The notes beneath the pieces were generated by a model, which was not told the origin of the DNA, searched no databases, and was given only the letters and a program-made list of their open reading frames with translations. From Amphibalanus amphitrite (lineage: Eukaryota > Arthropoda > Thecostraca > Balanomorpha > Balanidae), in contig NW_024882037.1 in the NCBI RefSeq assembly GCF_019059575.1, forward strand, positions 124,001 through 188,000: a stretch of 64,000 bases of DNA, read 5' to 3'. The position numbers and the translations under genes are program-made. How positions within the stretch are numbered: the first letter of the stretch is position 1; every line of letters starts with the position of its first letter. Of the stretch, positions 2,762 to 64,000 are shown in pieces.

Positions 2762-3935
2762 CCCGGCACCGCCTGGGCTATTTCCGTACCCACGTCAGCC
2801 TGAGGAGGGGTCGGATCCGACCCCCCCCCCTGTTTCGAGAACCAATTGTCGCATCGAGCCCCGCGAGGCGACGTTCGAAAGGTCTCTACGAGATCTTTCC
2901 AAACCACCCTTAAGATTTTAAGATTGAGGTTAACTTTCGGGTCAAGACCAGGTCAAAGATCAAATTCTGGGGTTTTGCATGATGAGGCTTACTGACGGGG
3001 AAATCGATAGCTCCTGCTCGAAACTCACCAAAAATGACGTCAAAGGCCTAGTGAAGATATCATGTGCGTATAAGGGTCATACTAAGCACGGGTCAAGGTC
3101 AGGTCAGGTCACGAAAGGTCACGGTTTTCACTTTCTGCTACATGGGCATGCGACACATGTTTTATGGCTTATTTTCTCGCCGAATCCGATGGTCATGGTT
3201 ATATGTAACCCAAAGTCACTGTCCTGGTCATAAGCAAGCATACAAAATCGTTTATATTATACATCACCAAGAAAAAAGTCAAATTTTCAATTTTTTGACA
3301 TAAAAATGCACTTTTCTAGACAAGCTTTGTCCCAGGAATCTAATGCTGCCATTTGTTTTCACATGCGATGTTCAGAAGTGCCTCAAACTCACGAAAATGC
3401 GTATGACGTCATGATGCCCTATACATGTCGAAGCTACTTTTTACAATTTGGGGGTCAAAAATCAAGATAGAAAGTTGAAACTTGGGACTTCTAATGTTCT
3501 AATAGAGCTCTATAACAAATATTCTGGTTTTTGAAAATTTGAAAATTTTGATTTTATTAGCTGTTTTCCAAAAAAATATGTTTTTTTTATTTTTAGGGGT
3601 CAAAAACGCACTTTACGGGAAAAGCGAGATAGCTATTTCAAAGATCCCATTAAGCTGCGTCTTTTCATGTCTTTAATTTGAAATTTGCTTAAACCCTCGA
3701 TTTTTGGCGATTTTTCAAACATTTACCATTTTTTGACGAAATCAGCTATGTAGTAACATCAATAAAATCGATATATTTCAAAAAGTTTTTGAAAAATTAG
3801 CATAAAAATTTGACAAAAAGCCGTCAAATTGATGAAGGAGAAGGTATACGAAGTTTCAAGTTAATAGCGTAAGCGGTTCGTGAGTTATTCGTGAAAACAG
3901 AGGGGGGGGGGGGTCGGATCAGAGGCGGTCGCGGG
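2762..3935. mobile_element. TTAA element, CCC-ended, subfamily with poly-G/C subterminal hairpin
   Basis: TTAA at 2758-2761 and 3936-3939. Left end CCCGGCACCGCCTGGGC, right end GGCGGTCGCGGG. G- and C-tracts around TCGGATC lie near both ends. The interior is homologous, in reverse, to 36865-38097. No transposase frame. Confidence 0.85.
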
Positions 3936-28914: not shown

Positions 28915-29020
28915 AGACCAGGGCTGCGGAGTCGGTCGGAGTCGGCAATTTTGCCCGGAGTCGGAGTCTGAGTTGACTTGGAGTCGCTAAAATCTTACAG
29001 ACTCCGACTCCGGAGACGGA
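28915..29020. repeat. GACTCCGACTCCGG-type short repeat
   Basis: Tandem GGAGTCGGAGTC units in both orientations, just before the LINE remnant. A matching block lies at 63315-63415. Confidence 0.65.
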
Positions 29021-29037
29021 GTTAACACTGCGTGGCT

Positions 29038-31190
29038 CAAAGTCTGGCAGCTGCCCGATGGCAGCAGTCAAAATGACAGCTCTTTTAATTGCAGAACCTT
29101 TGTCTCGTTTATTTAACAAATCACTTGCAGAAGGCAAATTTCCATCAACATTCAAAGTTGCCCACATAACACCTATCTACAAGAATAAAGGATCCCCCTC
29201 AGATTTTACTTGTTATAGACCAATTAGTATCTTATCAGCTCTTTCAAAGGTATTCGAAAAAATAGTTTACAGAAAAATGTATTCTCACTTTATAGAAAAC
29301 TCACTCCTCACGGAAAAACAAAGTGGTTATAGAGAAAATCACAGCACTGAACAACAACTTCTTTATCTAACAAACAACATGTATAAATCGTTAGACACAG
29401 GAAAGCAATTCACAGCTATCTTTTTGGACATTGCAAAGTACTTTGACAAAATTTGGCATAAAGGCTTGTTATTCAAATGCGAACATGATTTTGGAATAAC
29501 TGGAAAACTTTTAGAATGGTTGGAGTCATATCTCAAAAACCGTATTCAAATGGTACGCATAAACAACACACTGTCAGAACCACAGACCATAAATGCAGGA
29601 TGCCCGCAGGGCTCCGTCCTCGGACCACTTTTAGCTCTTATCTATCTTGACGGCCTTTCAAAGCAGACACAGCACAATATTTTATTTTTCACTTTATGCC
29701 TCACACTCAGAAACTGACTTACGCGAAACAGAACAATCGCTCCAAAAAGACCTGGACTCTATTTTCGAATAAGGAAGAAATTGGGCTATCACTTTCAACG
29801 CCGACAAAACAGTGCAACAAACATTCACTCACAGACAACATTCCAAAATGCCACCGACTCTTTCGTTCGGAGGGAAAGCAATACCACTAGCAAAATCACA
29901 CAAACATCTCGGTTTAATTTTCTCTGACGATCTTCGCTTTCATTGTCATATTAACGAAATATGCAAAAAAGTTAACATATCCCTCAGTCCATTGTATCCT
30001 ATTGCACAACATTTGCCAAGACCCATCCTTCACCAAATATATACAACCTATGTAAGACCACACTTTGACTATTGTGACACTGTTTACGACGGACATATCA
30101 CAGTACAGGACACGACACGACTGGAGACATTGCAAAACAGAGCGGCTAGACTGACGACAGGAGCACTCTTTAGAACACCCTCCGACAAATTACGACTCGA
30201 GACAGGATGGGACAGACTAACGACAAAAAGACGCATTCATAGATTGTCACTATATCACAAACTCGTTAAATCGAAACCAATTTTACCGAAGTACATACAA
30301 GAACTTATAACAAACACAAGGGTGACAGACACACAGTTGGTTTTAAGAAATGCCCATGACCACACGATCCATCGTCCGAAAACATCATCATATCAACGAT
30401 CATTCTTTATCACCACAAGCAAAGAGTACAACGAACTACCGGCAACATTTAAATCCTTATCCATAGTAGAATTCAAAAAACACATTGTACACCATATTGG
30501 CTCCCCCCAGCCACCAAAATACTACTCGTTTGGGTCAAAGACAGGCAACATCCTACATTCGCGACTAAGAAATGGAATGTCCGATTTAAATTCACAACAA
30601 TTTAACATTCAAAAACAAGATTCTCCGGCATGCCCTTGTGGTCACAGCATAGAAAGCGTTCGTCATTTCATCACAGCATGTCCATTGCTTTTACCTCAAA
30701 GACGCATCCTTTACCAAAAAGTATCGCAAACACTACATTCTAACTTTCATGACTACCAAACTAATAAAAAATTGGAAATCCTTCTTCATGGCACCAACCT
30801 AAATAGTGGCGACGGCCGGGCGGTGGCTCAACACTTCCAAACGTTCTTACTTAATTCTGGGCGCTTTCCAATCAAAACACTCTGACTATTTAATTACGAG
30901 GCGGGATGGGCGTGTCTCGGTGGGGTGGCGTCGGCAACGGGGCTCTCTGGACAACCTCTAATGCGCGACGCGTTCGGCTTGGTGGCGGCGACCGGCGATT
31001 TAGTTTGTTTGAATCCATTTTAAGTTCTTGTATATGTGTGTATGTGTTTATTTGCTTGTATGTTCTTTAACAGAGCTGGTGCCTCGAATTAAGCACTTTC
31101 GAGTGCTTTTGCACCAGTTCTTACTTATCTTGATTTTGTGTATTCTTTTGTTTCTTAATAAACGTGATGATGATGATGATGATGAAAGTC
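29038..31190 (+). pseudogene. 5'-truncated non-LTR retrotransposon (LINE) with broken reverse transcriptase
   Basis: From about 29058 the plus strand encodes a reverse transcriptase: PIYKNKG, YRPISIL, a degenerate motif A (FLDIAKYFDKIWH) and the QGS motif (CPQGSVLGP). The frame breaks at about 29690, just where the YxDD motif should lie, so the catalytic aspartate pair is missing. Reading then moves through a second frame to a third (29812-30885), which has the thumb/connection region (KHLGLIFSDDLRFHCHI) and a C-terminal knuckle CPCGHSIESVRHFITACP. There is no endonuclease domain upstream, so the copy is 5' truncated. It ends in a (GAT)n microsatellite at 31164-31185, the kind of simple-repeat tail some LINE clades carry. 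The clade (jockey, RTE-like or similar) is not resolved by eye. It cannot be autonomous. Confidence 0.9.
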
Positions 31191-39632: not shown

Positions 39633-42600
39633 ATGGCGCAGCACGGCGGTACACCGCCCGATAACGCTACGGTGCAGGTGAGCAGGAGGGCACTGCGGGC
39701 ACAGACATGTGAATAGTGCGCCAGGGCTGAAAACGAAGCATTGGCCCTGTTTCACGGCACGCTACAGGGGCTACTAGTGCTACTAGCGCTTTCGGGTTCC
39801 ATCGAAACATAAGCAAACTTCCCTGTGAGCGTCCCACCCAGTTTGTTTCCATAGCAGTCGAAAGCGCAAGCACCTATGCGCTGGTAGCGTGCCGTAGAAC
39901 AGGGCATGTGTGGCGAGGGGTTACGATTTACATCGGTGTGTGACATTCCAGCTCCAAGGTTATACAAATAAAGTGCGATACCTATCAAACGAAGTCTGAT
40001 AAGTTCTGGCACAGAAGTTCAATCATTCATAAAGACCAGGGCCCTATTTCACGGCACACTAGGTAGGAGAGAGCGGGGTCACACGGGCCACGGGGCAATT
40101 GTAATAGTGTTAATGATTCATAAACTTACCAATAGAATGAGCTGATGGCAACACCGAAAATGAGCAGTTCTCTAGGTAGGTACTGCCTTCCCAACGGAGT
40201 TCGAAGCGAAAGTGCGGGTTATGTCGATGGCTGTGCATAGTTGTGTTTTTCAGAGCATTTTGTTTTTTTTTTATCGTTAAATTTGATTAGCTCATTTCCA
40301 CAATTGAAAAGCTTCAGACTTTGTGCAAGCGTTAGCAAGCTTGTCCGTCCATACATCTTCTTCGGTTATTGAGTTATCAAGCTATTTGCGTTCATATTGA
40401 ATTCTCCAGCTAAATTAGTAGGTATATCTATATAGGGGAAGTTGGGGCAATGCCGGAGTTGGGGCAAAGCCGAAATTCGAGATATTTCGAAAACCGTAAG
40501 ACATGGATGCCACCTGTCAGTGATGCTCTGAAGCTTAAGTGACTACAATTATCGCATGTTTGTTACGAGTCGTCATTCGGAATACTTCGACTGTGAGGGC
40601 GCCAAGAGCGTTTTCAAGGTACGTTTCCCTTGTACTACATGCGCCTTTGAAGCTGCATTTCTTACTCATTATGCTACCGTTTGTCTGGCCAATTCGGTCA
40701 AGTAATCTTTAGCATGTCTTTGCATAAGTGTGCTGCCTATTTGAAATTTATACAGCACGTTGAAAAGTTATGGGCCTGCAAATGAAAGTATGGCAGGCTG
40801 GGGTAATGCCGAAAACGTGCGATTACGCACGTGTTAAAAGCACGCTACGTGGACTTTACTGCTGTAGAATAGCAACGCGTATTTTTAGTCACACAAATTA
40901 CACTTTCAACCGACACAACGGCCTGTTACCTATAAGGAATGATTTAGCTGGCATGTTCTTATTATATCACACAATTATAACTTCCAGTGTGCACCGCGTC
41001 CTCAAGCTCTTAAAACGCGTGTCAGCTTTGATGAATTCTGGATAAAGTTTGAGATAAAATGGCAAAACATCAATGTCGGCATTCCCCGTAGATCATTTCT
41101 CCCATTTTCGGCTTTCCCCGCAGTCCGGGGCAACGCCGAAAAAGTCACTTCTTTGATATTTTTAGTTTGTGCGCTTAACGGTATGCGAATTCATCAAATG
41201 CGCCTGGTATGTTTGAAAGGCAAAAGACTGGCCTCTCGAATGACGCCAACAAGAATAGCTTATGTTGTCTACCTTGCGTGCTACGGGCGTCAGAAAAAAA
41301 GTCTTCGGCGTTCCCCCAACTTCCCCTACCTATCGCTGAGCCTGTGCCAGCGAATTCGGCTGCACATTGCCATAACTGGCCCTAACTTGTCAAAAGCGTT
41401 ATATCAAAGGATGTCACAATGAAATGTTTAAGAGCCAATTATTCCCAGTTATCGGTTCCTACATCCAAAGCTGAACGTTGATAAAAAGCAAAAAAAAAAC
41501 TACACACATTTCTCTTCAAGTTGACAGATTGTGTACCTACCACTGCTGTAAATGCTCAATGCTGGGCTGATGCATTCTGACATGGATTCTGACAGGACAT
41601 CTCATGCTTGCATGATTTTATGGGGTTGGAATTTTACAATGTCTCCTGATTTTGTCACTCGATCAATTGCACGAGGTCTTCTCCTACGCAAACTATTTTC
41701 CTACCATATTTTTATACAATAACGACTAACGAGTGTTGACCCATCCTTCATCAACGCTCCTCTTAACTGGTTTTGTCTGAACCATTTCCATGTTTCCCCA
41801 TCTTACCTTGTTTACTAGATCTAGGAAAGTGTTCTACATTTTTAGAAAAGTCGCTAGACCAACGACCTCGCCCGTTTGCTCCCGTTGTTGCACTTAACAA
41901 TGTTGAACGGTCGTAGTGGGAACACGGCTTTACATAACGGCAGATCCTGTCCAACATACAAAGACACGGTTTCCTTTGTAATATAATATTACCTACATCA
42001 GCTTATTGACAAACTGTTTTATTCCTTGTGACAAACTGTTTTATTCTTTGTGACAAACTGCTTAATTCCTTTTCAGAACAACGCTACGCCAGAGGCGATG
42101 CAAATTCTCACTGCCAGCGGCAAGGGAGGCTTCGTGCTGGACTCCAAAAATCTGAAGAGTATCCTCTTGGCTGACGACATCATCGACAAGCCAGCGGTAG
42201 TCATCTCAGTCGCTGGGGCATTCCGCAAGGGAAAGTCTTTCCTTTTGGACATGATGCTGCGCTACCTTACAGCGTCAGACAAGTCCAACTGGATACACGA
42301 GCAGAGCCAGCGGGGCTTCCCGTGGCGAAGTGGATTTCGGAGACACACCACTGGCATCCTGATGTGGTCAAAGCCGATCCCCGTGACCCTATCAGACGGC
42401 ACAGGGGCGAACATTTTGCTGATGGACACACAGGGGACCTTCGACAACAAGTCTACCGTGCACGAGTCGTCAACTGTCTTTGCACTCAGTACGCTGCTCA
42501 GTTCCCTTCAAATTTACAACATCACTGGAAATTTGCAGAACGATGACTTGGAGCACTTGCAGCTCTTCACTGAGTACGGCCGACTAGCGCTGGATGACAC

Positions 42601-43957
42601 CAGCAGCAAGCCGTTCCAAAAATTGTTGATTCTGGTCAGGGATTGGCAATACGCTCATGAGCTTCCTCTGGGTGCTGGGTGTGGCAGCGAGCTGATCAAG
42701 GAGTGGCTGGATACTCCAACTGGGAAAAAGGAGCTGGAGAAGGTACGAACGCACATCAGAGGGTGCTTTGGCCAGATCGAGGGATTCCTGCTGCCGCACC
42801 CGGGGCAGAATGTAGCTAGCAGTCCCAACTTCACCGGCAGCAGCGCAGAGATGGACCCTGTGTTTGTCGAAAAGCTCAACGAGCTGATGCCTCAGATTCT
42901 GGCACCGGAGAAAATGACAGTGAAGAGTATTGCTGGCAACTCAGTCACAGCCGGCCAGCTGTTCACTTTCTTTGAGACTTACGCAAATCTGTTCCAGAGT
43001 GACAAACTGCCAAAGCCAAAGAACATCATGCAAGCGACCGCCGAAGCCAACAATATGGCGGCAGCACAAGACGCTAAGACGCAGTACATCAAAGAAATGG
43101 AGTTCCTGCACAGTGATGATCATCCTTCACTAGAACAGACCGAGCTTTTGGGGAAACACCAGGAAGCTTCAGAGAAGGCCATGAAGGCATTTACCGATCG
43201 CAAGAAAATGGGCGACTGGAAACTGTCAGAGAACTATCGTTTGAGACTGATGAAGGACATTGAAGAGTGGTACAAGTTTGCTGAGCGGGCAAACAACACG
43301 AAGCGCCAAAAGGAGCGGCTCAATGCAGAAAATCACAACTTGGGACTCATTGGGACCTGCAAAATGACCTACATCAATGCGATGGAAGAGGTCGCCGGTG
43401 AAGACGTGGGCTTTGTGCCTCAGAAGGAACTGGACAGCGCGCACGAGGAAGCCAGGAGGAAGGCAATGGATCAGTTTAAGGAAGAACAGAAAGTATTTGA
43501 AGGCATCGAAAAGGACAGCCAGTTTGCCCTTACCCAGGAGATCGACAATGAGTTCCGCCGAATGCTCTTCCACAATGACGTGAAAAAAGATGCAAAGAAC
43601 TTCAAGGCGGCACAAGCGAATATGAAGGCGGTGGGCCAGGCCAAAAGGAACTACCTTTCCATGATGAACGCAATGACAGATGGTGTTGCGCTAACGGTCG
43701 AGGAACTTCAGAAGCGACACGAAAAGTCGATGGAAGTCGCCGTGGATCTATTCGAGTCGCTCAAAGAGGGCGACGAGCGCATCGCGGAAGGTTACCTGGA
43801 GAACATGAAAGATGATATTCAGCGTGAACTGGAGTCGTACTTGAGCGCCAATCGACACAAGCAGGAAATGAAAGAGGTCCAAGAGCAAGTGCTGGCAATA
43901 ACAAAACAACTGGAGGATGCCAAAAAGCAAAGAAAACCCGGGTGCACCATTTTATAA
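39633..43957 (+). CDS. Atlastin/GBP-type large GTPase with triple helical repeat and CaaX box
   Basis: Two coding exons, 39633-39677 (15 residues, MAQHGGTPPDNATVQ, donor GTGAGC) and 42077-43957 (acceptor TTTTCAG), join in phase 0 to give 641 residues. G-domain motifs by residue: P-loop GAFRKGKS 62-69 with the atlastin-type catalytic Arg65, switch I RRHTTGI 103-109, DTQG 132-135, and RDW 203-205 in place of NKxD. The fold and motif wording are closest to atlastins. The family couples GTP-driven dimerisation to membrane tethering or to antimicrobial coat formation (GBPs). After the G domain there is not one middle domain but three repeats of about 95 residues, starting near Tyr352, Tyr447 and Tyr541; in each a His is followed 11 residues later by a Phe (376/387, 471/482, 563/574). 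There is no transmembrane hairpin. The protein ends KPGCTIL, a CaaX box whose final Leu predicts geranylgeranylation, as in some GBPs. The intron holds two transposon copies. The upstream 130 bases are GC-rich and may be the 5' UTR. Confidence 0.92.
39745..39903. mobile_element. Hairpin MITE in the GTPase intron, GGCCCTGTTTCACGGC ends
   Basis: GGCCCTGTTTCACGGCACGC at the left is mirrored by GCGTGCCGTAGAACAGGGC. Inside, GCGCTTTCGGGTTCCATCG pairs imperfectly with CATAGCAGTCGAAAGCGC. A lone terminus, GGGCCCTATTTCACGGCACAC, occurs again at 40041. Confidence 0.7.
40435..41326. mobile_element. TA-flanked element, GGGGAAGTTGGGGC ends, 892 bp
   Basis: TA, then GGGGAAGTTGGGGCAATGCC; right end GGCGTTCCCCCAACTTCCCC, then TA. 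GGGGCAA-type motifs recur inside. It lies in the GTPase intron. Confidence 0.82.
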
Positions 43958-44516
43958 CTGGGCACTTTCAGCGCAGTGGGAAAAAACACGGCAGTGCAGT
44001 GCACCAGATATTTGAGTAGTACTCACCATATTTGGATTTACAGAATAATTCTGCGCAGTTGCAGCAATCAAAGCCCTGCCAGAGCGATCGAAGATGCAAG
44101 TGCTTGTGATGCGATACTTTATAGTATGAGCCTTAGGATATTTTTTCATTTAGTTTTTTTTTTGTCCTGGGGACTGATTCGTTTCACTGAGCTGTTTGGC
44201 GATAGCGGCTGCCTTTATCTTCCCTGTGTAAATTGATGCTTCTTGACTGCCACCACTGTCACCATTCGCCGAGCAAACTGGACTCTTCAAGTCGTTCGTC
44301 CAATGCGTTGTTTTTATGTTGTACACTTTGCAGTTCATACAGCTTAACGTTCAGATAACCTAAAATGTACACTGCTATTAAGTTGTAATTTGTTTGAAGG
44401 TTTGTATATGTAGAGAGAATGAAGTCTGACGTGATATTTGAACTTTGTATGCAATTAAAGGGTACTGAATCAACTTATGATTGCTTATCTCAAAATGAAC
44501 CGTAAGTAGTAAACGG
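43958..44516 (+). other. Probable 3' UTR of the GTPase gene
   Basis: Repeat-poor sequence with a possible ATTAAA signal at 44453-44458, just before the repeat array begins. Nothing else is recognised. Confidence 0.4.
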
Positions 44517-44790
44517 CCCAGTAAACATGCCAACGTCGGCCCTACGTCGGTTCAACCTCGGCCCGACATCGGCTGGACGTCGGGTATGCCCGCATGCTCC
44601 GACGTCCAGCCGAAGTCCAGCCGACGTCGAGCCGACGTCGGGCCGAGGTCGTTTGCCGAGGTTGACGAGATCGTTTTTCGTTGGACCGACGGGGCCGACG
44701 TCGGCATGTTTATTGGGACAACGCGCCAAAAATATCAACCGGCGGCGGGATTCGAGCCCCCCAGTCGCCGACGTCGGCATGCTTACTGGG
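44517..44790. repeat. Palindromic GACGTCGG array bounded by CCCAGTAAACATGCC
   Basis: Starts CCCAGTAAACATGCCAACG. The body is made of overlapping palindromes CCGACGTCGG, GGCCGACGTCGGC and TCGGCTGGACGTCGG. The right terminus GACGTCGGCATGTTTATTGGG (44716) is duplicated, with its neighbour, at 44768-44790. Confidence 0.88.
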
Positions 44791-44807
44791 ACAACACGCC
44801 AAAAGCA

Positions 44808-44882
44808 CCAGCCGGCGATGGGATTCGAACCCTGTGTCATTTAAACGCGAGGTTAGTGCGTTAGCCACTACACCACGCAGCC
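44808..44882 (-). ncRNA. tRNA-derived element (SINE head or tRNA pseudogene)
   Basis: On the minus strand an A-box TGGTGTAGTGGCTAACG and a perfect B-box GGTTCGAATCC lie at normal tRNA spacing. The acceptor and anticodon stems do not pair well, so this is not a working tRNA. A second B-box-like GGGCTCGAATCCC occurs at about 44740-44754 inside a duplicated block. Confidence 0.65.
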
Positions 44883-46449
44883 AGATAGCGAATATAGTTT
44901 GTTTTGTTGGGTTATGCCCTTTCGGTCTGACAAGACCATTTCAGAGCCGGAAGGATGATAGGATGGAGACATTGGTCTTCTTGGCGAGCACCTTGGGTCC
45001 AGTTCATATAGAGTCCCTGGTCTCATTGCTGTTACGTGACACTTATTGGAAAGGGCGACCCCACAATGGATTCATATAGCCACTCTTACACACTTGCACC
45101 AACGTTTCCCAAAGTGTCCCTTTCATAAGTGGCACTTTGGCAAAGTGACACTTGCCGACTGGCCAGTGGCGGCGGATTCGATTTTGGCGTGGGGGGGGGC
45201 AAGATCCCAGTCGAGATGATGTCATAGGCGGATCCAGAAAGGCGTTTTCGACGCTGTAAGGGACATACCCCCCAAAAAAGTGTCCAAAATCCAAAAACTC
45301 CTCGGATTTCGATTCCTTACGGACTTACTGCTGAACAGCAAAAAAAAATCCTGATAAAAGTGTTATTATTAGGAAACATATTTGTCTATTTCGGGCGATG
45401 CAGGGGCCAGGGGAGGGGGAGTAAATATTTGCTTTAAATGCCCGCTCCCTGGATCCGCCAGTGGACGATGTAACGCTTTTCGTATTGCTGTATTAGAAAA
45501 AAGCTCCAATGGGAAAAATTGTGCCATAACCCGATCGCATATCAGATGTTGAAGAACGGTGCCAAACCTTTTGAAGTAGGCGCGCGCTATTCTTTGCAAT
45601 GAGGTAGCTCGTTACCATTTCCTCTGTTCATTTTACGTTCGATTTCCATTTAACCTTCCTTTAAAAAGTATTTCTGAGACAGATATCAACTGAAACTAGC
45701 TCACAGCGGGAGGAGACCGCTCAAACATTCAAAGACAGTCGGTCGCATCTAAACATATTGGGACAGCGATCCGCCAGAAACCCTCCCCAAAGCAGAAGTT
45801 CACCAAATAAGCTTATTTGGATGTAACGCCTCACTCTTGGTGGCGTTACATCCAAAGGTGTAACGCCCATAATGAGCTAGCTCACCGAGACGAGCTGTCT
45901 CGATGGGTTTATATAGTAAGCCTACAGCAAGGCTTAACTAAGGCCCAAACGCTCGTCAAGCTGGGAACGGAGGGTGAGGGAGCGCGGCGGCGGGCTGAGG
46001 TGAAGGAACGGTGGACTGGAACGGGAATCCAGAAGCTCTGGGCGGGGCGTTTCTTTATTAGGGCTTTAGGGTGTGCTGACTGCGGTAAGGTCCAAATTAT
46101 CACACCAAATTTTGCCACGACATCTACCGGTTCAGGCACTCGAGAATCAGTGGCCAGTGATATCTGCAAAGACGAAGCATTTCCAACCCAGCTTCAGCCT
46201 GGTGTCAGGGCGCCTCAGGTGGCTTTAATTACAGTTGCACATACCAAACGACCTTAGTGCAGCCAGTCTGTGGCCGAAACCATTCGGAACAGACTTCAAC
46301 GAAATGTGAGACAAGGTTAGTGCTATCGTTAAGTGCCATTATAGACTTGGGCCCCGTTGGCTTGACCCACTGGAAGGTGGTAGCTATCCGACGCTGCGGG
46401 GCATACTCATTTTTCCAAAATGCCTTAGATTTTGCTTTCGTGTTCATAG
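44883..46449. other. Unassigned segment with one unsupported open frame
   Basis: A GGCGGATTCG / GATCCGCCAGTGG-ended MITE relic spans about 45166-45464. The 146-codon frame at 45817-46257 starts inside a short GGCGTTACATCCAA hairpin and has no recognised features. Confidence 0.4.
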
Positions 46450-62286: not shown

Positions 62287-62715
62287 GATAGATCCAGCTC
62301 TCAAATTTATCGAGAGATCCGTAGGGATCACAGATTCGAGTCTCATTTTTTGCTTGAGATCCTGTGAGATCATAGATCCTCACTTATTTTTTGTCAGCAC
62401 AGAAATAAAAAAAAAACACTTGTTGCAACGCATAACCGTTCTGTTTGAGTGATTTTATGTGCTCGCACGTCATAATCCATAGTTTTGTGGCACTTATTGA
62501 TACAGAAACCCTTTAAAACATGGTTTCAAATGTTGTGCATGGTGGGATCCACTCAGATCATAGATCCATGTTCTTGATTTATCGTCAGATCGTATGAGAT
62601 CATAGATCCAAGATGAGTTTTTCACGACGGATCCGATGGGATCATAGATTCTAACCTGTTACCTGCAGTTTGCTTCGAGATCCACTGAGATCATAGATCC
62701 ATCGCTCGGATCCAT
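62287..62715. repeat. Spaced GAGATCATAGATCC repeats
   Basis: GATCATAGATCC or one-base variants near 62367, 62555, 62600, 62640 and 62688, each preceded by GATC(C)-containing text. Starts beside a CGGCGGAAC MITE fragment at 62248-62282. Confidence 0.65.
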
Positions 62716-62819
62716 GCACATGTTTGGTGCTAGCCATGGCTGGTCCGCTACGAAGATGAAATAGGCAATAGCCCCATCAGCAGGCTGCACTGTCAATTTG
62801 CGGACGAAGATTTGTGGAA

Positions 62820-63262
62820 AATGCGAGACGAAGAAATGCGGAGACGAAGAAATGTGCGGACGAAGAAATGTGAGACGAAAAAATACGGAGACAAAGAAAT
62901 GCGAGACGAAGAAATGCGAGACGAAGACATGCAAGACGAAGACATGCAAGACGAAGACATGCGAGGCGAAGAAATGCGAGACGAAGAAATGCGAGACGAA
63001 GAAATGCGAGACGAAGAAATGCGAGACGAAGAAATGCGAGACGAAGAAATGCGAAACGAAGAAATGCGAGACGAAGAAATGCGAGACAAAGAAATGCGCG
63101 GACGAAGAAATGCGGAGACGAAGAAATGCGAGACGAAGAAATGCGAGACGAAGAAATGCGAGACGAAGAAATGCGAGACGAAGAAATGCAAGACGAAGAA
63201 AGGCGGAGACGAAGAAATGAGAGGACGAAGTTTTGCGGACGAAGAATTGCGCGACGAAGAAA
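62820..63262. repeat. 15-bp minisatellite, unit GAAATGCGAGACGAA
   Basis: About 28 units with variants (GAAATGCGGAGACGAA). The unit length is a multiple of three and lacks stops, so long frames arise on both strands (EMRDE, KKCET, FVSHF); these are artefacts. Flanks carry a duplicated ATGGCTGGTCCGCTACGAAG / ATGCCGGTCCGCCACGAAG segment. Confidence 0.93.
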
Positions 63263-64000
63263 TGCCATGCAAAGATTTGTCCGGATACGCTGCGGTATCA
63301 ATTGATTTTCGGTGACTCAGACTCCGACTCCAGTACCGGCTTCCAAAGTCTACTCCGACTCTGACTCCGGCCACAACTGTCAACTCCACCCAACTCTGAC
63401 TCTGACTCTGTAACCCTGGTGCGAACCACAGCTCAGGTCCAGTGGTTTGAGTCAATGGCCGGCCAATCAGCAAGCTGCATTGTCGTGTGACGTCATTTGT
63501 GTTCTAGCCATGCCGGTCCGCCACGAAGATGAAATAGCTCGACCTTGCAGGAAAACCGTTAGGAAAGCCGTTGACTTCAGTTGCCGGAAGTGTGCCCACG
63601 TGGGTGCGTGTGGTGTGAGCGGGGAGAGGAACTTATTTGAATTAACGCGCTTGTAATGTCGCCAAACGTTGTTTAAAGTGTAGATTTACTTCAAGTGATA
63701 GTGCTTTAACGATAGACTTCAGATTTTATTTGTAGTTTGCTCAACATGCGTATTTAAATAACGAGGCGCCCTGCACTCGGCGAAATTTTGAAGTAGGACA
63801 CAGGGGCGGAGCTTCCTATTCACTTGGTGGGGCGGCTGCCCCACCAACTTGCCATTTTGCCCCACCAATAAGAGTTTTGCCCCACCAACTTAAGCCAATT
63901 TGCAGGACTTTACTGCTCAGCAAACCAATGTTTTTCGCATTGAGGGGCTTTAAAATGTCTTTGTAATGCAAAATATTATCTCCGTAATGAAAAGGATTGA
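63263..64000. other. Unassigned right edge
   Basis: GACTCCGACTCC repeats at 63315-63415 match the block at 28915-29020. A GGGGCGGAGC fragment with repeated TGCCCCACCAA units lies at 63800-63890. No gene supported. Confidence 0.45.

Follow-up and report, generated by a model that had tools for sequence, protein, structure and literature searches.

What does an atlastin-type GTPase do when its C-terminus carries a CaaX box instead of a membrane hairpin, and three middle-domain modules stand where one is expected? In atlastins, which are ER and traffic proteins mediating homotypic ER fusion, one three-helix bundle is followed by a two-helix membrane hairpin and a tail, and the amphipathic C-terminal tail aids fusion. 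GBPs, some of which end in a CaaX box, are for their part isoprenylated in the cell, and their expression is induced by infection or interferon. The gene that raises the question lies in the window, i.e., the whole stretch of 64,000 nucleotides that was analysed, where no Rfam match at the gathering threshold and no tRNA (ARAGORN) were found.

The gene and its atlastin-type GTPase domain

Joining 39633-39677 to 42077-43957 on the forward strand gives an open reading frame of 641 residues plus stop, in a gene model whose exon 1 and junction are predicted from genomic DNA. Its features, all on the forward strand, are:

39633..39677, forward: exon 1 with the coding start, MAQHGGTPPDNATVQ (ATG at 39633; CAG and then the donor GTGAGC, the boundary falling after 39677)
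39678..42076, forward: phase-0 intron, GT...TTTTCAG, its acceptor ending at 42076
42077..43957, forward: exon 2, 626 codons plus stop, holding GTPase domain, linker, R1-R3, tail and CaaX box
42215..42238, forward: G1 P-loop GAFRKGKS, whose arginine is also present in human atlastin-1
42425..42436, forward: G3 DTQG, as in atlastins
42638..42646, forward: G4 RDW, as in atlastins
43061..43327, forward: R1 (residues 344-432), a middle-domain module of three helices that aligns with the bundle of atlastin-1
43349..43609, forward: R2, second module, type B, residues 440-526
43628..43882, forward: R3, third module, residues 533-617, of the odd-module group in the tree and a near tie in cross-family scoring
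43883..43942, forward: charged tail, with basic KKQRK immediately N-terminal to the CaaX box
43943..43954, forward: CaaX box CTIL at the exact C-terminus, a predicted prenylation signal
44454..44459, forward: possible polyadenylation signal ATTAAA, read by eye

A near-identical copy on contig C355 has the same exon 1 and donor, letter for letter. Exon 1 can also be aligned in the C521 paralog, where the donor is GTAAGC, GTG takes the place of the start ATG, and an alternative ATG directly before the donor opens, as read by eye, a three-codon in-frame stretch. A TTTCAG acceptor occupies the homologous place in 15 of the 18 other single-exon relatives compared.

The catalytic motifs are intact, with the atlastin-type set GxFRxGKS, DTQG and RDW all present, and the translation reads these motifs and the terminal CTIL where the preliminary description had placed them. 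The GTPase domain plus R1 matches human atlastin-1 (402 residues, 3.3e-115, 389 bits), the ‘LOC432253 protein’ (9jju) reaching 91 bits in the same comparison. The kinship to atlastins that had been proposed is thus supported at the level of sequence. The family trees were built without a GBP outgroup, which leaves their root unfixed; L011 and C1491 form long branches in them, and L011 groups with atlastins once C1491, L021 and two C372 copies are removed.

Repeated middle-domain modules and the family that carries them

R2 and R3 are genuine modules, each a further copy of the three-helix middle domain known from atlastins. The three repeats of about 95 residues had been counted from Tyr352, Tyr447 and Tyr541, and these tyrosines, together with a His-to-Phe spacing of 11, can be read in all three. 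Self-comparison puts a lag of 95 above all others between 20 and 179, and Smith-Waterman scores are 85 for R1-R2 (best of 1000 shuffles 60), 72 for R1-R3 (best shuffle 54) and 57 for R2-R3, a value reached by 1 of 1000 shuffles, the best of which scored 61. A profile built from 17 first repeats recovers both of the others, R2 with an E-value of 2.2e-13 and R3 with 8.5e-11, whilst at E≤1e-3 it matched none of 17 reversed and none of 340 shuffled tails. Chance repeats were rejected on these shuffle controls and E-values. Taken alone, the R2 plus R3 stretch reaches 9e-4 against the solved bundle of atlastin-3, via R2, and a weak 0.12 against fly atlastin, via R3. Profile-profile comparison of four-sequence repeat alignments gives R1-R2 a probability of 94.6, and R1-R3 and R2-R3 only 18 and 9. 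AlphaFold models of exon 2 alone (mean pLDDT 38) and of residues 327-641 (49.6) are too poor to yield a fold, and show just helices that recur in step with the modules; the three stacked bundles and the rigid reach of the preliminary description accordingly stay predictions.

Searching the gene's own genome (807.6 Mb) places it in a family whose members have a main coding exon without introns and 2, 3, 5 or 6 middle-domain modules. The genome is an arthropod's, of a crustacean and probably of a barnacle: its mitochondrial gene block matches that of a barnacle, although another barnacle, Chthamalus malayensis, is reported to have a different light-strand gene set (PMC7894419). The family is duplicated and partly clustered (C264/C1457, C372), and its C-termini vary: a CaaX box ends the proteins of 4 of the 14 collapsed loci, and the rest have hydrophobic segments or neither. 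With 10 of the 14 lacking the box, the family can evidently manage without such an anchor. Apart from it stands an ordinary-looking multi-exon atlastin (C241/C789), which matches in at least seven pieces and whose frames past its bundle read like the atlastin hairpin. The ‘hybrid class’ of the preliminary description is an understatement, given that the number of modules and the C-terminus both vary in the family and a separate atlastin is kept. Pattern scans of viral contigs (1 match with the protein query, 55 with family alignment A2) and of genome contigs (13 matches) gave zero confirmed relatives.

In a tree of 38 modules from 11 of the 19 proteins plus one human module, eight close copies having been dropped beforehand, R3 falls among the odd-numbered modules. 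So does the second module of L011, whose branch is the longest; the tree also has a number of weak forks. Cross-family scoring leaves R3 near a tie (7.7 for A, 4.5 for B), is uninformative for the third module of L009 and the sixth of L016, leans contrary to type for the fourth of L016 (22.2 for A, 20.0 for B), and depends on the profile pair for the first modules of L019 and L011, on whose types the two pairs disagree.

Anchor, function and competing explanations

No transmembrane segment or two-helix hairpin was found by hydropathy scan in the 641 residues, just as had been described: the highest 19-residue Kyte-Doolittle mean, 1.39, lies inside the GTPase domain, and no segment reaches 1.6. 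What ends the protein is CTIL, and a leucine at the X position predicts geranylgeranylation; prenylation of the window protein is accordingly a prediction from four residues. The tail itself, seen by eye, is charged. Paralogs end in CTIQ (C521), CILL (C410) and CVIM (C107/C1023). The box is kept in C521 (77.9% identity) and C410 (58.1%) despite a divergent tail, whose dN over 24 codons is 0.50 and 0.72, respectively, and from both of which the basic patch is missing.

The explanation that we favour, with moderate confidence, is a functional, prenyl-anchored, long-stalk atlastin-type GTPase serving as coat or tether, most likely in defence against intracellular microbes. The pairing of two GTPase domains upon GTP binding, with a crossover at R1, would follow the pattern of atlastins and GBPs; R2 and R3, as duplicates of the R1 module, would serve as a lengthened helical stalk; and a geranylgeranyl group on the CaaX box, after the basic tail, would anchor the protein at the cytosolic face of a membrane. 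Because the hairpin is absent, a coat on a single membrane or a distant tether of two seems more likely than atlastin-style ER fusion, and the most probable role would be a GBP-like defence. An immune role for this gene, as had been suggested, is plausible by analogy: silkworm BmAtlastin-n is reported as antiviral (PMC4926086) and a tick ‘atlastin-1-like’ gene is listed as raised in Babesia-exposed haemocytes (PMC11789329).

The same anchor and tether could instead serve housekeeping, in vesicles, Golgi or ER, with copies specialised by tissue or membrane and no immune role. This we hold possible though doubtful, and, the mechanism being shared with the favoured explanation, the odds of the two overlap. 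Atlastins do act in the ER and traffic, and the different paralog C-termini (CaaX, hydrophobic, neither) could suit different membranes. The gene is also under purifying selection: dN/dS to C521 is 0.41 overall, with 0.225 in the GTPase domain, 0.555 in R2 and 0.614 in R3, and to C410, where a dS of 1.60 is close to saturation, it is 0.19 overall and 0.151 in the GTPase domain. The ER job, however, has a separate multi-exon atlastin available for it, and a duplicated, partly clustered family whose stalk evolves faster than its motor looks more like defence genes, even if the quicker change of the stalk may reflect relaxed constraint rather than adaptation. The antiviral silkworm protein, itself hairpin-less (PMC4926086), speaks against housekeeping as well.

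Less is left for a cytosolic long-stalk scaffold, with oligomerising repeats, an unused CaaX box and an incidental C-terminus. It would fit the relatives that have neither CaaX nor hydrophobic end (the C372 copies, L016/L018, L021/L022) and the cytoplasmic location given for BmAtlastin-n (PMC4926086). It is unlikely when one considers that composition alone would put C-x-aliphatic-X at the exact end of about 0.002 of proteins, and that the box is kept in three related loci and in C107 while neighbouring residues change. A chance CaaX was rejected on both grounds; the chance figure for its presence in 4 of 14 loci treats related genes as independent and is overstated.

That the protein is a genuine invertebrate GBP, and no atlastin relative, is very unlikely. 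It would account for the CaaX box, the missing hairpin, the long helical C-terminus and a match to Pfam GBP_C (297 positions) at 7e-7. Yet the best GBP, GBP2, scores 68 bits (7e-18) against the 389 of atlastin-1. The better of the two GBP_C stretches covers only profile positions 2-111, over linker and R1 (exon 2 residues 287-401), and falls short of a full GBP_C with GBP middle and effector domain. Four of six paralogs scanned likewise have their best stretch inside linker and R1, and GBP_C is absent at 0.01 from the remaining two. A profile of even-numbered modules ranks fly atlastin and atlastin-3 (2e-4) first, and only these stand out, atlastin-1 chains (0.02-0.11) being mixed with unrelated proteins (triosephosphate isomerase, 0.04); zero GBPs appear up to E=10.

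A decaying atlastin retrocopy or pseudogene, which the intron-free main exon might suggest beside an atlastin in pieces, is scarcely conceivable, as the 626 codons are open both here and in the 99% identical C355 copy, dN/dS is well below 1, and acceptor and exon 1 are conserved.

Wider meaning and comparison with known systems

Tentatively, the family could be a crustacean atlastin-type GTPase that turned GBP-like independently, with module-array stalks (2, 3, 5, 6) grown partly by A-B pairs and interchangeable anchors (a CaaX box of the geranylgeranyl or of the farnesyl type, a hydrophobic segment, or no anchor) as rulers for cell-autonomous defence. If so, module number would set the distance of a GTPase coat or tether from different membranes. 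A 2024 structural paper states that, among these proteins, GBPs uniquely require isoprenylation for membrane binding (PMC11746146). Were prenylation confirmed, a CaaX-bearing atlastin-type GTPase would challenge this uniqueness and show a route from fusion machine to GBP-like tether or coat. Natural copies differing in stalk length and anchor form a series for testing fusion versus tethering versus coating, and the family renders testable a question raised in a review (PMC9005921): in invertebrates without GBPs, has defence passed to the atlastins?

With human atlastin-1 and -3 and fly atlastin the window protein shares the GTPase domain, the G1/G3/G4 motifs and the first bundle, unlike them having three bundles in total, a CaaX box and no hairpin. 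Among the atlastins that our literature searches brought up, none had a repeated stalk or an anchor of the prenyl type. Close homologues already described had been named as grounds for refutation, and in part they exist: atlastins that lack the hairpin and have a coiled-coil middle domain can be found in the literature, and the antiviral BmAtlastin-n of the silkworm is among what was already known (PMC4926086). That protein, of 770 residues, cytoplasmic and hairpin-less, and likewise the silkworm Atlastin3/4 without transmembrane segments, match ours, by the definition given there, in an atlastin GTPase with a helical middle region. In this comparison by description, the main text does not use the word CaaX, and the passages compared speak of no module repeats (PMC4926086). 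The tick gene, Rhipicephalus microplus LOC119164337, stands at 17.37 and 13.94, read as fold changes, in a table of haemocyte genes raised after two Babesia infections, and is likened to the window gene by arthropod atlastin-like annotation alone (PMC11789329).

GBP1 carries a farnesyl and GBP2 and GBP5 a geranylgeranyl anchor (PMC11746146, PMC9005921), and nucleotide binding makes GBP1 release its prenyl group, form a crossover dimer and assemble a coat (PMC11746146). Common to these three and the window protein are the CaaX box, present in paralogs too, the long helical stalk and the lack of a hairpin, the prenyl anchor and crossover dimer being only predicted here. Unlike GBPs, ours is distant in sequence, has a best GBP_C stretch reaching no further than R1 and owes its stalk to the repetition of atlastin-type modules. 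The mirror case is Dictyostelium Gnbp, in which atlastin and GBP traits are mixed as well: this homolog of GBPs is said to possess a transmembrane domain at its C-terminus and to be without the helical part of GBPs (PMC8565484).

The window gene and its repeats

The gene considered here is a genuine feature, made up as follows:

39633..39677 and 42077..43957, plus strand: the two exons
43061..43327, plus strand: first middle-domain module (R1)
43349..43609, plus strand: second module (R2)
43628..43882, plus strand: third module (R3)

The exon join proposed in the preliminary description is in phase and gives a 641-residue protein, in whose sequence every trait claimed there is present (i.e., the GTPase motifs, the repeat starts, their His-to-Phe spacing, the absent hairpin and the CTIL terminus). 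Exon 1 and its donor have the same sequence on contig C355, which carries a near-copy of the gene (L010), and are alignable on C521 (relative L013), which has GTG in place of the window's ATG, another in-frame ATG being closer to the donor. The TTTCAG acceptor lies at the homologous position in 15 of the 18 relatives checked and is absent there from L018, L021 and L022. Between 36.6 and 45.2 kb, C355 and the window share colinear blocks of 93-99% identity, with unmatched stretches interspersed.

Pairwise alignment of the modules scores 85 for R1-R2 and 72 for R1-R3, the best of 1000 shuffles reaching 60 and 54, respectively; for R2-R3 the score is 57, which one shuffle in 1000 reached (best, 61). 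Searching the PDB with R2 and R3 only retrieves atlastin-3 through R2 (9e-4) and fly atlastin through R3 (0.12). A non-iterated profile built from the first modules of 17 proteins, among them three near-identical pairs, matches R2 at 2.2e-13 and R3 at 8.5e-11, and finds 31 stretches at E<=1e-3 downstream of module 1 in the 17 proteins, compared to none at this threshold in 17 reversed and 340 shuffled sequences (best shuffled, 0.0082). When four-sequence alignments are compared profile to profile, R1-R2 obtains a high probability (94.6), R1-R3 and R2-R3 low ones (18 and 9, respectively). As AlphaFold, run without an alignment on pieces of the protein, yields helices only (mean pLDDT 38 and 49.6), we infer the stacking of the repeats as serial bundles.

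Relatives, anchors and module history

The genome searched (807.6 Mb, 2644 contigs), in which the window is C540:124001-188000, holds at least 27 matches to PF02263, those found being 19 single-exon frames, one of them the window gene, and eight pieces of one multi-exon gene in two copies; the window protein used as query gives 33 matches. Compared here are the remaining 18 single-exon places, the multi-exon gene in both its copies and a place on C1491 matched by the protein query only. The last of these (L032:2874-5117) is an intron-free frame of 747 residues whose matched part shares 24% identity with the window protein; it lacks a P-loop GKS and has two modules and a doubtful third. Several genes form near-identical pairs (window gene/L010, 99.0%; L011/L012, 99.7%; L016/L018, 97.5%; L019/L020, 100%; L021/L022, 96.7%) and, if such genes on separate contigs are two haplotypes, as we read them, the 19 single-exon genes (18 plus the window gene) reduce to 14 loci. 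Contigs C264 (L016, L014) and C1457 (L018, L017) each carry two family genes in the same arrangement, ~57-59 kb apart; one pair has the 97.5% identity just given, the pair at the second place just 72.1%, and these contigs are perhaps two haplotypes with strongly different genes at one place.

The multi-exon gene, on C241 and C789, gives its matches exon by exon, and the frames downstream of its bundle resemble, by eye, the hairpin and tail of atlastin, so that an ordinary atlastin is probably retained in this genome. Both copies of this gene also contain the stretch FQLFTEYGRLAMEDS twice, 70 bases apart (L027:3627-3674 and 3697-3837), which is either a short duplication in tandem or a case of alternative splicing.

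Modules and C-terminal ends of the window protein and its relatives (modules counted with an iterated profile seeded with repeats of the window gene's group)
Three modules: window protein, L013, L009 (C410), L011, four C372 genes
Five modules: L014, L015, L017
Six modules: L016
Two modules: L019 (second one partial), L021
CaaX end: window protein (CTIL), L013 (CTIQ), L009 (CILL), L011 (CVIM)
Hydrophobic C-terminal segment: L014, L015, L017, L019
Neither: L016, L021, C372 genes

The four atlastin-like genes on C372 (L023-L026) have an altered P-loop (GTTDPGKT) and VHHW or VHDW as G4; their proteins are perhaps GTPase-dead partners.

The window gene is maintained by selection, and its stalk evolves faster than its motor. 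By the Nei-Gojobori method, dN/dS against the C521 gene is 0.41 overall, with 0.225 in the G domain, 0.527 in the linker plus R1, 0.555 in R2, 0.614 in R3 and 0.84 in the tail (24 codons), within which, in spite of its divergence, the CaaX box persists. Against the C410 gene the ratio is 0.19, at a dS of 1.60 that is close to saturation, two of the five partitions giving no dS. In a tree of 39 modules, from which eight close copies had been removed beforehand and which included one human atlastin bundle, the even modules of the window, C372 and C264 groups cluster together and the odd ones cluster with the human bundle; support is mixed, several branches are long and the second module of L011 falls among the odd ones. 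Cross-family profile scores agree with the tree for most modules of these groups, with ties and exceptions. This clustering, together with the scores, suggests with moderate strength an ancient A-B module pair, extended later.

Surroundings and mitochondrial contig

Three further stretches of the window may be described:

28977-30885, plus strand: retrotransposon remains, with an RVT_1 reverse transcriptase at 28977-29714 (4.8e-24) and, after it, another open frame that matches nothing in Pfam
44550-44900, directly downstream of the gene: repeats rich in GACGTCGGC, together with a GGGATTCGAACCC piece resembling a tRNA, by eye SINE-like, with a 22-base core in two copies, one mismatch each
62659-63315, both strands: tandem array with a 15-base unit, whose several open frames give long spurious ORFs

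The mitochondrial contig of the same genome (15,683 bases) has ten in-frame TGA in COX1, and its minus strand carries K, Q, C, ND1, L1 and a V gene (protein genes named by eye; ARAGORN tRNAs partly spurious). The light strand of Megabalanus tintinnabulum carries trnK, trnQ, trnC, nad1, trnL1 and trnV (PMC7707791). Barnacle orders vary, and Chthamalus malayensis is reported to have different light-strand genes (PMC7894419). We regard the animal, with moderate confidence, as a barnacle.

Kinship and possible role

Pfam recognises a GBP N-terminal domain in the window protein (5e-68), along with a partial match to GBP_C (7e-7), best along the linker and R1. In the PDB, atlastin-1 comes top (3.3e-115) over exon-2 residues 8-409 (GTPase, linker and R1), compared to 5.7e-25 for the best non-atlastin, the ‘LOC432253 protein’ (9jju), and 7e-18 for GBP2. 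With a profile of even-numbered modules, the bundles of fly atlastin and atlastin-3 come up at 2e-4, and GBPs are absent from the matches up to E=10. The protein falls outside atlastins proper, the hairpin having been looked for and found absent, and on sequence it falls outside the GBPs.

Literature searches for atlastin combined with CaaX, prenylation/three-helix bundle, invertebrate GBP evolution or Ixodes gave no prenylated or repeat-stalk atlastin among the matches listed, subscription papers lying outside them; that for ‘atlastin-like’ and tick was empty, and two broader, loose searches, of little weight, had no atlastin or atlastin-like among the matches listed.

Homology to atlastin and to GBP predicts GTP-driven pairing of the GTPase domains and crossover of R1. 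GBP1 is a case in which a dimer of this kind is able to uncover its prenyl groups and assemble into a coat (PMC11746146). Given the lack of a hairpin and the three-module stalk between motor and predicted lipid anchor, the window protein more probably forms a coat or a long-range tether than fuses membranes, and its mode of action is probably GBP-like. An immune role is plausible through analogy with BmAtlastin-n, the hairpin-less antiviral atlastin of the silkworm (PMC4926086), and with the ‘atlastin-1-like’ of the tick Rhipicephalus microplus, which figures among haemocyte genes upregulated with Babesia in a table of PMC11789329.
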